From positions 62,001 to 126,000 of the forward strand of contig MU119342.1 in the NCBI GenBank assembly GCA_014904845.1: 64,000 bases of DNA, in the 5' to 3' direction. This DNA comes from Acephala macrosclerotiorum. Taxonomy: Eukaryota; Ascomycota; Leotiomycetes; Helotiales; Mollisiaceae. Below, in pieces: positions 55,764-63,234 of the stretch. The notes beneath the pieces were generated by a model. The model was given only the letters and a program-made list of their open reading frames with translations. It was not told the origin of the DNA and searched no databases. The translations under genes were made by a program, and so were the position numbers. Each line of letters starts with the position of its first letter. Positions within the stretch are counted from its first letter, which is position 1.

Positions 55764-55995
55764 TAGACATTGAATTGGACTCTACACGGAGCACTACCCC
55801 CCCTCCTTTTATAGAGAACCAAAACTTGCATACAATAAAGAGCCAAGAACTGCTTATAGTAGAAGCCAAAACTGGCTTATTGCAGCACATATAAGAAGAC
55901 CATCTATCTCCTAAGCTTGGTCCTCAGATTTTACATCAGTTTCTAACGCCCATTGCTCCCTATACCACTCTGAATCGAACCTTCATTCTTACGAG

Positions 55996-57567
55996 ATGGG
56001 ACCACAAAAGAAGAAAGTAAGAATCGTGAATCAGGAAAAGGAGGCTAGGAGACATGAGAAGAAGAAATTGGCCAATGACGGGATTTCTAAGGCGCGTAAG
56101 GCACTCGAAGATACAAGAGAGACAAAGGCACAAAGGGAGGCCAGGCGGAAGCAACTGCAAGATTCTCTCGCAGCTGCATCGGAAGAACAGGCGAAGGCCG
56201 CGAAAATGGAGATTGATACGATCGAGAATGAGCTTCAACAGACTGAGCAAAGGCTAAGAGAGGTAGAAGCGGAAGAGGCAAAGTTCAAGAAGGATGAAGA
56301 AGACGCCGATAATGAGGACGTGCATGAAGAGATGGAGGTTATTTTTGATGATGGTGGGAATGACCCTGATAAACCGAAGCCTTCGACCGAGTCCATGGAT
56401 CCAGCGGAATTCGCAGCGAAGCTTATGACGGGACTGAGCATTTCTGACCGGAAAGAAGGCATTGACCTAACTCAGGATATCCAATTGAGGAACACGCAAG
56501 CGGTGGTCTGCTACAAGAGTGGATTTGGGAAGCCAGTTATTGTTGTCGATTGCGAAATCCCCAATTTTCCAATTTACCGAATTAGGAAGGATATTATGGT
56601 TCCGGATAGGACTCCAAACCTTATGAGGTGGAGACGCGGGGGTAAATGGAAAGATGTAAAGGCCGAAGTCAAGTGGAGGTCGAGAGATATAAAAGATATC
56701 CTAGGCATTGCAATTGAAGTACCACTGGGCTATAATGGAAAGCCAGAAGATCTCGTCCAGCCGATCCGACGTCTGTCGAAAAAGGAAAAGGAGAAATTGA
56801 TCAAAAAAGGGAAACCTATTCCAAAGGAGCCAAAGCAGCCGGATGTACAACTTATCGTCGAATGGTGGCAGGGGGTCATACCAGAAGGTGAAACTGAGAA
56901 GCGTTACACGAGTTTGGAAAGCAGATCATCGTGCCGTGATATTTGGAGGAAAAAGGGCGTCGCTGATGCCTTTTTGTTGGACGTGGCAACGAAGAAGGAA
57001 GCAGGGTACAGGCGGGCTGGTGGGCGGCACTCCTCAGAAGAAAGGAGCTTGTCTCCAATTAGAATACCAAGGGGTACACCGGGAGTTGATGATGACCTAA
57101 ACTCGGACGAGCCAGGAACAGAGGATGAGGAAGAGGAGGAGGAGCAGAAGAAGAAGAAAAAGGAGCGGAAAAAGGGAAAGAAGGAAGAGGAGGGCGAGGA
57201 AGAGGAGGGCGAGGAAGAGGAGGGCGAGGAAGAGGAGGACGAGGAGGAGGAGGACGAGGAGGAGGAGGACGAGGAGGAGAAGAAGGAGCAGAAGAAGAAG
57301 GAGCAGAAGAAGAAGGAGCAGAAGAAGGAGCAGAAGAAGAAGAAGAAGAAGGAAGAAGAGGAGAAAAAGAAGGAAGAAGAGGAGAAAAAGAAAAAGGGGG
57401 AGGAGAAGAAGGATGAAGCTTCGGTATATGAGGCCAGCTTGAAAGCGTTCGAGCCAAAATTCCGCATAATAGAACGCATCGAAGCAGGCGCCAAATTGAC
57501 AGCAGCACAAAAGGGGGAAATGATCGAGGCGTTCGACGCCTATTGGGAGAGGCAGCAAGCAAAGTAA
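55996..57567 (+). CDS. Lys/Glu-rich hypothetical protein, 523 aa
   Basis: An intact frame. An N-terminal coiled coil (ARKALEDTRETKAQREARRK, LRRVEAEEAKFKKDEE-like, about 1-115) precedes a central globular part (about 140-360) with AVVCYKSGFGKPVIVVDCEI, NFPIYRIRKDIMVP, LMRWRRGGKWKDVKAEVKWR and VQLIVEWWQGVIPEG. A pure Lys/Glu tract of about 110 residues follows (57120-57415), encoded by GAG/AAG triplet repeats that are likely to vary in length. The end (YEASLKAFEPKFRIIERIEA) is ordered again. No known family. The central part may bind nucleic acid, judging from its basic aromatic content, but that is speculative. Confidence 0.65.
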   Translation: MGPQKKKVRIVNQEKEARRHEKKKLANDGISKARKALEDTRETKAQREARRKQLQDSLAAASEEQAKAAKMEIDTIENELQQTEQRLREVEAEEAKFKKDEEDADNEDVHEEMEVIFDDGGNDPDKPKPSTESMDPAEFAAKLMTGLSISDRKEGIDLTQDIQLRNTQAVVCYKSGFGKPVIVVDCEIPNFPIYRIRKDIMVPDRTPNLMRWRRGGKWKDVKAEVKWRSRDIKDILGIAIEVPLGYNGKPEDLVQPIRRLSKKEKEKLIKKGKPIPKEPKQPDVQLIVEWWQGVIPEGETEKRYTSLESRSSCRDIWRKKGVADAFLLDVATKKEAGYRRAGGRHSSEERSLSPIRIPRGTPGVDDDLNSDEPGTEDEEEEEEQKKKKKERKKGKKEEEGEEEEGEEEEGEEEEDEEEEDEEEEDEEEKKEQKKKEQKKKEQKKEQKKKKKKEEEEKKKEEEEKKKKGEEKKDEASVYEASLKAFEPKFRIIERIEAGAKLTAAQKGEMIEAFDAYWERQQAK

Positions 57568-58289: not shown

Positions 58290-60186
58290 ATGGAAATCAC
58301 CCTAGCATATGCCATCGCCTTGGGTGGCGTCCTTCTCATCCCTCTCCTTATCAATCTCCTTCCTTGGCTTCCGTATCTTACTTTCTCTACACCACTCTTC
58401 CTCCAACAAATTTTAAGATACCTAACATACTCTTACCTTGTTCGCCGTCATCAATTCTTGGGCCCGTGGACATGTGCAGGCCTTATAATTCAGCTTGTGT
58501 ACATTGCCTGCAACTCTTTCTGCGTTGGTTTCCGAGTCTCTGACGTTGCAAAAGCCGGTGTACGAGCCGGGAATCTCTCAGTAATCAACATGATCCCCCT
58601 CTTCCTAGGCCCACACCTGGGATTTCTCGCTGATATTCTTGGTATCTCCTTGAGCACCTTTCGATTAATGCACCGTTCCGCTGGGATGATGTCCTGCAGC
58701 CTGGTACTGTTCCATGTGCTCGCCATGCTCGTCTCCCATACAGCCTTCCCCTTACGTAGTACTGCAAACATTTCTGCGGTCGTAGTAAGTACCCTCGTTA
58801 CTATCATCTTTTTACCACTGACATTTTACAGAGTGGAGCTTCTCTGGGTTTGATAGTTGTACTTTCCTGGTCCTGGTCTCCGCTCCGCAGATGGTTCTAC
58901 GAGATTTTCCTTCGCTCGCACCAATTACTGGCAGCTATTGTTGCCACATCTGCTCTACTCCATATCCCGTCGGCGCTATTCCCTAGATTGTACTTCTACA
59001 TCTCTTTGGGGATCTTTATAGCCACTTCCGCATATGAAGGAGTGCTCTTGCTACACCGCAATGGAGTCGTCGCGCGTGCCAAAGGCAGAAAGTTGCCGAG
59101 AGTTGGAGAGGTCTTCAAGTATCCGGGTGAAGATGACAACAGCCCTGTACAATTAACGATAATTCCGCAAGAACCTTTGAGAATGGACGCTGGACAATAT
59201 GTTAATATGTATATCCCATCACTTGGCGTTCGCTCCTTTATTTTTATGCAGACCCATCCATTTGTCGTCGCCTCCTGGACTGGCAAGCGGCAGACGAAGC
59301 TAGAGCTCGTGATCGAGCCTCGTCGTGGATGGACTAAAATTCTCCAGTCTCGCGCCATAACTGCGAGCGGGCAGAGCGGAGGACTGGGTCGGGTGCTATT
59401 TACTGGACCACACGGCGCTATCGTACCGGTGGGCAACTACGAATATATCTTCATGGTTGCGAGCGGTTACGGTATCGTAGCGCAGTTGCCACTTTTGGAA
59501 CGGCTGGTTCAGGGCACGCTCGCTCGCGAAGTTCGAGCTCGCCGAATCTGTTTAGTCTGGGAGTTTGAAGACATCGGTGAGTATGCTCTCTAAATGTTGC
59601 TTGCCTCCCTTAACGGTTTTACCATAGGGCTTTACAAAGCAGTTTATCCGCTATTTAATTGGGTTTTGGTAGAAGATCGGAAATTAGGAGACAATTGTGT
59701 AAGTTGCAGCGTCAATTCAGATATCTCTTCCTAATACCGCCAGGCCCTTGCAATTTCGCTTTATTCGTCCCAGCTGGCGCCTGATGAGCTTTCAAAACGA
59801 GCCAAGATTTCACCAGAATCGCTCTCTCTCAAGGATGTGTTTAAAGCTGAGATCGCAGAGATTGACAAGAGGAAGACGCAGGAAAATGAAGCCGTACGAA
59901 ACAGGGAGGAAAAGAGGGCAGAGGAAATAGAAAGAGGACGAAGAGAGGTTATTCTAGAACGGTCGAGTGGAGAAGTCATCCATGAGCCTGGGGCCTTGCC
60001 CGTGTGTACAAGTACACCTAGAATGCTTATCACAGGTAAGACTGTCGCATATTGAGGGTTTGCTCTTGTCTAACGATTCAAGTATCTGCATCAACAAAGA
60101 TTCGGGATGAGCTAAGATCCATTCTACGAACTTCTCTCAATAAAGATATTACTTTAAAAGAGCTAGATTATCAGCCTTCACACTAG
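58290..60186 (+). CDS. Ferric reductase (FRE/NOX-type transmembrane flavocytochrome), 568 aa, five exons
   Basis: Exons 58290-58784, 58832-59576, 59628-59698, 59744-60035 and 60083-60186 keep one frame; introns are 45-51 nt. The membrane core has bis-heme histidines at 128, 142, 195 and 209 (LMHRSAG, VLFHVL, RSHQLL, LLHIPS), spaced 14 apart within each pair as in FRE/NOX proteins. The FAD segment is HPFVVASW (307-314). The NAD(P) side shows TGPHGAI and MVASGYGIVAQLPLL, then RRICLVWEFED, and the end VSASTKIRDELRSIL and LDYQPSH. Between them is an unusually charged insert rich in Lys/Glu/Arg (EIDKRKTQENEAV, EEKRAEEIERGRREV). The enzyme would reduce Fe(III) or Cu(II) at the plasma membrane before uptake. 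The complete set of conserved residues argues for a working gene. Confidence 0.88.
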
Positions 60187-60421: not shown

Positions 60422-63234
60422 ATGGTAGAGCGAATTAAACTGGCCTCTTTGCCAGACTATGTCGCGCATTTGGAGCTACGTCCATTAATCAACGCATTAC
60501 GGGAGAAGAAGAAAATCGTTGTTATAGCAGGAGCGGGAATCTCTGCAAAAGCTGACAGTAAGTAGCTCTCTTTACATTATCCCACCTGCTAAGCTGTGAA
60601 GTCCCGACCTTTGACGCTATGCCAATGGCTAGCACAACAATATTCAATATGAGCATGTATAACAACGACAAGGATACAATACTCTTAAACGAAATGTTGT
60701 CTGATATGTATCACCGCGCGCAGGCTGCAAGCCCAACTCAATTTCACCGCGTGCTCGAAGCCATTGCCGACGAAGGTCGCCTGCATCGGCTATATACTCA
60801 AAATATTGATGGGCTTGACACGCAATTAGCACCATTAAAGACTCAAATTCCTTTGCCGTCAAAGGGGCCATGGCCGACGACAATTCAGCTACATGGAGAC
60901 TTAAAGACTGTTAGGTGCCAGAGAAATCCTCAACACTTGTCTCGCTTTGACCCAGCTTTGTTCGCCTCAGATTTGACCGCCAAAAAACCATCCATACCGA
61001 CGTGTACTGAGTGCAAGGCACATATGCGAACAGGGGAAGTTCCTGTCTTGAGACCCAGAGTCTGGCTATATCTTGATGACAACTATCCGGATGAGGATGC
61101 TATCAGCAGGGTCACTCATGCCGATCTGCAAAAAAAGCTCGATGCAGTTATTGTAGTAGGCACTGCGCTCAAGGTCAAAGGAGCAAAAGAGTTAGCAAAG
61201 GCTATGTGCACTGCAGTTCGTCAGCGTGGTGGGATCGCTGTCTGGATCAACCTCAAGGCCCCGACCCAGGATCTCGATTGGTTCGACCTCGTCATCGAAG
61301 GAGACTGCGAAACAGTGGCAATGCACGTGTCGACTTGGTGGCTGAAAGTCCCTCTTGTTTTGAGCGACAGCCAGATACAACAACTACAGCAGAGATGCAA
61401 GCCACTCTTTATTGCAAGGTCGCCCGTAGCCGCACTAAATCGAGTTTTGGCCGAGATGGATACCGACTCTCTCTCCAAAATCATCCAGCAACATGAAAAT
61501 AAGTCAAAGATCCTCAATATCAAAGATAATGGCAGGTTGATCTTTGCCTCCGCAGAGCAACCCCAAGTTACTAGCACAGGCGGTAGTACAGCTAAGCTCG
61601 CTTGGACGGCAGTCAACAAGCCATTGGCGGTACGAAGTGCCGCACCACCTAAGAGCCCGGATATCCTGCCGAAGCTGCCAGACTGTTGGAGAGTTGAAAT
61701 GTCAAAAAGACTGAGCGAAGTTGTTGTCGAAGTCGTTATTCGTAAGACTGGGAAAAACGAGACGGAAAAAGTACGTGCAAGTTCGAGTGTGGTCACTAAA
61801 ATTCTCGACCTTGGATACCGCGCAAAGCCAGAAAAGTCCCTCTGGCGCCTGAAGCCCGGAGAATGGCTTGATGACGAGATTATCAATGCATATCTTGAAC
61901 TCCTTCAGAGGTCTATCGCATCTCCGAGTCATATAATCGCAAATTCCTTCATCATAGAGATGAGACTCGATCAGCAGTACAAGTGGTTTACAAAGCTCCT
62001 TGACACTGGTACATACACAATATATCTACCAGTCAATCAAAAAAACTACCATTGGAGTTTCGCTGTTATGACATCAAAGAGCAAGGAGGATGCTTTGTGT
62101 TGGACCTATTATGACAGTCTTGGCGGTGAAGCTCCAGAGGCTCTATTGAACTGGATTCAACTTTGGTTCGGTAACAAAAGGATAGAGGGGCTGACGGTCT
62201 CATCTAATCCAAAACAGAAGAATGGCAAAGACTGCGGCCTTTTTGTCCTAATAGGCATTCGTCTCTTGACTGCTGGGCGGCCACATCTCACCCAGGCCGA
62301 GAGCAATGCTTTACTTCCATCGTTCAGGGAAAGGGTCTTGGCCGAACTCCTAGCTTCAAGCCTCGACCCTTCGGAAAGCCAATATCGAGAGCTCGAACTG
62401 AAGGAGACAAACGCCAAAGAAACCCCGCCGCAAGCCACTGAGGACAGTGATAGTGACGACAGTGATTGCGTGATTTTACCTGCGAAACCCGACGACCATC
62501 ATCGCAACAATCAGCCAGAGCTATTCGTATCGCAATCCCCGGTTTCTGATTCTAGTGGTTCTGGAGGAGACGAGAAAAAGAGTCCTGAACATATCGCTTC
62601 CGCATTTGCAAGGGAGGCAACGATGCTCAGTACGCTAAGAGAGGCCATAGCAATAGAACGCGCCACACAAAAACAACAGCAGAACTTAGCAACAGAGAAC
62701 CTGGAGCTTGCAGAGTTGTGGCTCATGATCAGAACAGAGAAACGGGCTCTGAAACAACGATACATCCACTACGAGTTTTCTCGCCAATTCTGGGCAGTGA
62801 TGAAGGATTTCAATAGGAGCCCACACGAACGTGGCCCAGTTCCCAAGGCTACTATCTCGAAGGTGATGTACAAACTTGAGATCACCGATCGGGCTACCTG
62901 GAAATACATCTTAAAACGGGCAAGGAGAGGATCAGTCTGGACTGAACTAATTGATATATTCAAGGACGATCTGGAGCACCCTAGTGTTGTGTTGTGCGCC
63001 GTCCCAAACGCGACGTACAAGTTAGAGGCACTAACATTGTCTAATCGTAAAGTATTTTTTGAGACAATTCGTTCGAGATTGAAAGAGCCAGAAAATGGGA
63101 TTCTGGCAAGACTCAAAGCTGCAAGTGCTCTATATTGGGCGGTGATACATAACGGCCTACCCATAGAGGACCTTCCCATAGAGTCCGCCAACGAAGACCT
63201 GCCCTTTGAACAGAAGGTCAGTTCTGGAAAATAA
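60422..63234 (+). CDS. Sirtuin (Sir2) - Ulp1 SUMO-protease fusion protein, 922 aa, one intron
   Basis: Exon 1 (60422-60557) and exon 2 (60602-63234) join across a 44-nt intron (GTAAGT...GTGAAG) that precisely restores the NAD-binding motif VVIAGAGIS...DIPTFD (residues 33-50). Sirtuin residues: YTQNIDGLD (110-118), catalytic His143 in IQLHGDL, Cys151/180/183 for zinc (one of the usual four is not obvious), VVGTALKV and VWINLKAP. A linker leads to a C48 (Ulp1) protease: LKPGEWLDDEIINAYLELL, His529 in NYHWSF, Asp550 in YYDSLG, Gln584 and Cys590 in NPKQKNGKDCGLFV, so the full triad is present. DSDSDDSDCVILPA (residues 661-673) is a canonical acidic SUMO-interaction-like motif. The last 250 residues hold a coiled coil and an unknown basic domain (RATWKYILKRARRGSVW). 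It may act on both acetylated and SUMO-conjugated proteins. Confidence 0.85.

Follow-up and report, generated by a model that had tools for sequence, protein, structure and literature searches.

The sirtuins Hst3 and Hst4 are deacetylases of lysine 56 of histone H3 (H3K56), and Ulp1 and SENP1 are C48-family proteases which act on the small ubiquitin-like modifier (SUMO). According to an excerpt of one report, sister-chromatid recombination in budding yeast requires, among others, Hst3/Hst4 and Wss1, a SUMO protease of a different family (PMC3554610). Mutants of a further sirtuin, SIRT6, also bear on the protein described here: excerpts of the respective papers describe R65A as being without deacetylase activity (PMC5115890), D63Y as reduced in catalysis (PMC7051178) and Sirt6-R65A in C2C12 cells as similar to wild type in an effect dependent on adenosine diphosphate (ADP)-ribosylation, unlike G60A, S56Y and H133Y (PMC11600243). 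In a stretch of 64,000 nucleotides from the fungus Acephala macrosclerotiorum (contig MU119342.1, positions 62,001 to 126,000; hereafter the window) we analyzed a forward-strand gene at 60422-63234, the spliced product of which is one protein of 922 amino acids (aa) containing, in order, a SIR2 (sirtuin) domain, a C48 protease domain of Ulp1/SENP type and a helical C-terminal domain. This sirtuin/protease fusion is a conserved family; both enzyme families are known, the novelty lying in the architecture and in the altered pocket of the sirtuin, and no description of such a fusion turned up in the literature searched, as judged from listings of papers.

Pfam profiles for both enzymes matched the joined protein above their cut-offs, SIR2 (PF02146) at residues 37-238 with 59.5 bits (cut-off 24, E 5.2e-16) and Peptidase_C48 (PF02902) at residues 466-609 with 40.7 bits (cut-off 20.7, E 3e-10); RickCE_cat scored under its Pfam cut-off in the same 922-aa protein. 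The predicted intron begins with GTAAGT and ends with GTGAAG (GT and AG borders). When the gene is left unspliced the frame runs straight into a TAG codon, and the exon 2 frame extends over 890 codons, whereas 200 mononucleotide shuffles of the gene sequence yielded no frame longer than 243 aa. An initial annotation of this locus had given the same gene coordinates, intron (60558-60601) and protein length, had placed a sirtuin and a C48 protease within one protein, to be checked by the domain search reported here, and had claimed that splicing rebuilds the motif which binds nicotinamide adenine dinucleotide (NAD); all of this was borne out, and splicing restores the split Ile codon in the motif equivalent to GIPDFR. 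It had also argued that the fusion was no chance joining and proposed a survey of fungal proteomes for the same architecture, a view which the 29 aligned relatives from several species described below support.

With the spliced product as query, a search at E 0.001 returned 169 proteins, the best 120 of which were listed. Twenty-nine related proteins (P0001-P0029), 45-93% identical to the window protein when aligned, form with it a family alignment of 30 rows; residue counts given here take in those rows which have a residue at the column in question. The sirtuin catalytic His and the protease Cys are both present in 24/30 rows, and the second half of the sirtuin is present in 28/30, the two others (P0027 and P0029) beginning later; gene models which do not have the sirtuin part begin inside or just before the protease. 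At E 0.01 Pfam recognized C48 in 29/30 members and SIR2 in 25/30. The rows which carry an organism name are from Rhexocercosporidium (P0003), Lachnellula arida (P0005) and Pseudogymnoascus (P0013, P0016, P0020, P0024, P0028), the remainder being nameless, and a taxonomy look-up placed Rhexocercosporidium, L. arida and P. destructans in the Leotiomycetes, orders Helotiales and Thelebolales. A C-terminal piece of the family was found in Cadophora sp. (P0124). None of the relatives examined, which did not include P0123, showed the protease and C-terminal half in a form clearly separate from sirtuin sequence. The P. destructans protein P0028 (624 aa) is a shorter fusion model in which parts of the sirtuin and of the C-terminal domain are missing, either by model error or by gene loss.

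In the sirtuin half GAGIS occupies residues 37-41 of the window protein, with G37-A38-G39 in 8/8 rows (these columns are blank in 22/30 rows because the gene models begin later), and Q112, N113, D115 and H143 are each found in 25/25 rows. The fusion has in common with Hst4 sirtuins the SIR2 domain, QNID, the catalytic His, the PWPxTIQ.HG and LRPR regions and the position of the intron, and differs from them in the attached protease and in several sites of the sirtuin itself. The GIPDFRS motif reads DIPTFDA in the window protein, and TF followed by D, E or Q with loss of the Arg in all 13 rows showing the motif, whereas DFR is kept in 91/91 non-fusion proteins among the matches listed. The loop which follows is approximately 13 residues shorter than in Hst4-type proteins (8 shorter in P0020), and GT[S/T] has become GTA in 26/28 rows. 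The first zinc pair, CxxC in 9/9 Hst4-type proteins shown, is replaced by C-x3-6-H, so that the zinc site of the window protein (C151-x5-H157...C180-x2-C183) is made up of three Cys and one His and not of four Cys; C151 and H157 are present in 26/26 rows each, C180 in 26/27 and C183 in 27/27, and P0007 and P0022 have an extra Cys between C151 and H157. The initial annotation had listed nearly all sirtuin landmarks, including the zinc cysteines, as present: GAGIS, QN.D and the catalytic His are indeed there, but the lost Arg and the GTA do not fit "nearly all", and one zinc Cys has to be corrected to His. By position in the motif, T48 and D50 are matched to what we take to be D63 and R65 of SIRT6, and the fusion would thus naturally replace, in 13/13 rows, an Asp and an Arg which in SIRT6 were changed in the laboratory or in disease. 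Thr also replaces the motif Asp in SIRT5-type sirtuins, and for this reason the loss of Arg is the telling change. Since the catalytic His and Asn are invariant a purely dead domain is argued against, and the lost Arg, the GTA and the shortened loop likewise argue against a plain deacetylase.

The His-Asp-Gln-Cys set of C48 proteases was found as annotated, at H529, D550, Q584 and C590 of the window protein, and is conserved in 29/29, 26/29, 28/28 and 28/28 rows, respectively; N113, H529, D550 and Q584 are all present in 21 of the 24 rows having both H143 and C590. Among solved structures SENP1 was the best match to the protease part (E 3.2e-12), followed by Ulp1, and the LNDEIIN motif is shared with these SUMO proteases. 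The fusion differs from them in the sirtuin ahead, in the unmatched helical domain behind and in the position before LNDE, which is Trp in 8/29 rows. An all-helical fold was predicted for the C-terminal domain in the window protein, with a predicted local distance difference test (pLDDT) score of 85.0 and a predicted template modelling (pTM) score of 0.82, and the mean conservation of this domain (0.716) is on a par with that of the enzyme domains (0.693 and 0.657); it gave no Pfam match above cut-off and no convincing fold match. What had been annotated as a textbook SUMO-interaction motif (SIM) did not hold up: CVILPA in the window linker fails the strict pattern of a four-residue hydrophobic core flanked by acids, and the DSDCVI sequence occurs in only 4/30 rows (window protein, P0001, P0002 and P0005). 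A strict SIM-like motif was present in the linker of 10/28 rows (2 more rows were too short) against 2.48 expected from shuffles, these motifs falling into two or three related groups and therefore not being independent. The strict match of the window protein sits elsewhere, in the helical C-terminal domain, and was given no weight.

To judge from its sequence, the sirtuin half is descended from Hst4. The nearest unfused proteins among the matches listed are Hst4-type sirtuins, and the genome (69.7 Mb in 778 contigs searched) retains an ordinary Hst4 besides the fusion. This Hst4 has a predicted intron of 51 nucleotides at the same position and in the same phase as the 44-nucleotide intron of the fusion, which supports common descent of the two, the comparison being with one paralogue and with introns inferred from sequence. 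In a tree of 117 rows, which took in 22/30 fusion rows, the fusion formed one clade (support 100, starred) on a long branch of 1.95 changes per column, nested in a starred set (99) which also includes 31 non-fusion rows, and paired with the genome's own Hst4 with a support of 85 (not starred). A tree of 44 rows with 15/30 fusion rows gave 100/100 (starred) for the fusion and 63/76 (not starred) for the same pairing, and both runs flagged long branches. Since the own Hst4 was the only tree row placeable in the window's species and Leotiomycete Hst4 could not be distinguished among the nameless rows, the trees do not fix the date of the duplication.

The genome also contains a second divergent Hst4-like sirtuin (G000:C28:371119-371844, L028), with VPTFEDM where GIPDFRS is expected and with its parts separated by an in-frame TGA, and a related piece lies on another contig (G000:C10:3484-3738, L030). 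L028 is 33% identical to the own Hst4 and resembles the fusion in reading PTFED at the GIPDFR motif; unlike the fusion it is on a contig (C28) without any of the genome's seven C48 matches. With L028 as sister of the fusion the approximately unbiased (AU) test gave p 0.557 and the tree was undecided. Because L028 also reads PTFED, the TF change may predate the fusion, or it may have two separate origins.

The architecture, its conservation, the Hst4 descent and the residue changes are established at the level of sequence. As to function, we favor, with a probability of roughly one half, a conserved protease for SUMO or a related ubiquitin-like modifier (Ubl) which bears an altered Hst4-derived sirtuin module. 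A copy of Hst4 would have been joined, probably in Leotiomycete fungi, to an Ulp1/SENP1-type protease and the helical domain, and the protease half, presumably the working enzyme in most members, would cleave SUMO or a related Ubl off targets which are probably nuclear. The sirtuin half has kept its fold and the catalytic His, Asn and Asp and has lost the GIPDFR Arg and part of the cofactor loop, and it may be above all a module for targeting or for the sensing of NAD and acyl-lysine, whose deacylase activity would be altered or weak. Several observations weigh against this proposal. The invariant catalytic His and Asn would be needless in a pure reader domain; D550 is replaced by Cys in P0020 and P0026 and by Asn in P0022, and the protease is therefore not intact everywhere; the variable residue preceding LNDE, Trp in SENP1, leaves SUMO specificity putative; and only the Arg loss weighs strongly among the motif changes, Asp-to-Thr alone being known elsewhere. 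The Hst4 descent would point to chromatin linked to replication and repair rather than to the silencing or transposon control suggested in the initial annotation.

A bolder reading, which we regard as rather unlikely, is an NAD-gated SUMO-type protease, in which the Hst4-derived half no longer deacetylates in the classical way; it would bind acylated chromatin together with NAD or a product of NAD and switch or steer deSUMOylation, or else would ADP-ribosylate the same target. If true, such a protein would be a direct physical link of NAD state to SUMO control, alongside an ordinary Hst4. Sirtuin and SUMO pathways have both been studied in silencing and genome repair, and their natural and conserved fusion suggests that, in one fungal lineage, it has been of use to have both in a single polypeptide. 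It also offers a naturally changed Hst4 which has lost residues matching those of studied SIRT6 mutants, and makes the coupling of NAD state and deSUMOylation in one protein testable.

A dual eraser as in the initial annotation, with both halves active and taking acyl groups and SUMO off one and the same target, in chromatin or at the replication fork, is possible, if doubtful. The invariant sirtuin Gln, Asn, Asp and His and the largely intact protease residues would suit it, and because Hst3/Hst4 and Wss1 meet in yeast sister-chromatid recombination in the excerpt cited above (PMC3554610) a joint chromatin role is plausible, though the yeast finding is no evidence for the fusion protein itself. 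It is opposed by the replaced Arg, the GTA, the shorter cofactor loop and the replaced zinc Cys, and by the excerpted description of SIRT6 R65A as without deacetylase activity (PMC5115890). We consider it improbable that the sirtuin half, beside a SUMO protease, has turned from deacylation to another use of NAD, either mono-ADP-ribosylation or cleavage of NAD. The two excerpted accounts of R65A, near wild type in the ADP-ribosylation-dependent effect (PMC11600243) yet without deacetylase activity (PMC5115890), fit a fusion which has no matching Arg; however, Gly60 of SIRT6, needed for ADP-ribosylation according to these excerpts, is by motif position Asp45 in the window protein (Gly in the 5 other rows whose motif is unbroken). 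Decay of both halves in a gene of no kept function would account for the long branch to the fusion clade, the loss of D550 in three rows and the shorter P. destructans model, but is very improbable given the long open frames in many relatives, the invariant catalytic His and Cys and a mean column conservation of 0.66-0.72 in the domains compared with 0.46-0.55 in the linkers. A wrong gene model joining two genes by chance can practically be dismissed, as exon 2 by itself carries positions 54-179 of 180 of the SIR2 profile and the entire C48 match in its single open frame and the second half of SIR2 is joined to protease sequence in 28/30 rows (partially in P0018), so that only processing at the protein level could part the halves.

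Table 1. Coordinates in the window of the fusion gene, its parts and its upstream neighbor.
Feature	Position	Strand	Description	Basis
Exon 1	60422..60557	+	Start codon, N-terminal part, GAGIS of NAD-binding fold	
Intron, phase 1, 44 nucleotides	60558..60601	+	Splits Ile codon of GIPDFR-equivalent motif	Inferred from sequence
Exon 2	60602..63234	+	Remainder of protein including stop codon	
SIR2 domain	60530..61179	+	Intron-interrupted, Hst4-derived	Pfam, residues 37-238
Peptidase_C48 domain	61861..62292	+	H529, D550, Q584, C590	Pfam, residues 466-609
Acidic stretch DSDSDDSDCVILPA	62443..62484	+	SIM-like, kept only in close relatives	Motif scan and alignment
C-terminal domain	62575..63231	+	Predicted all-helical, well conserved in family	Structure prediction and alignment
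Ferric-reductase-like gene, upstream	58760..59593	+	Open frame	Same neighbor merged into P0013

The Pseudogymnoascus model P0013 has a ferric reductase merged ahead of the fusion, and this part shares 62% identity, over 245 aligned positions, with the gene directly upstream in the window, which indicates that the neighborhood is common to the window and P0013 at least. Further upstream, at 55915-57567, an open frame of 550 aa contains a long Glu/Lys-rich low-complexity stretch and gave no Pfam match above cut-off. Elsewhere in the genome, five matches to the Rad60-SLD ubiquitin-like family were found in one frame of 773 aa (G000:C149:115153-116910), from a total of 26 matches genome-wide, and C2:428785-429712 is probably a polyubiquitin.
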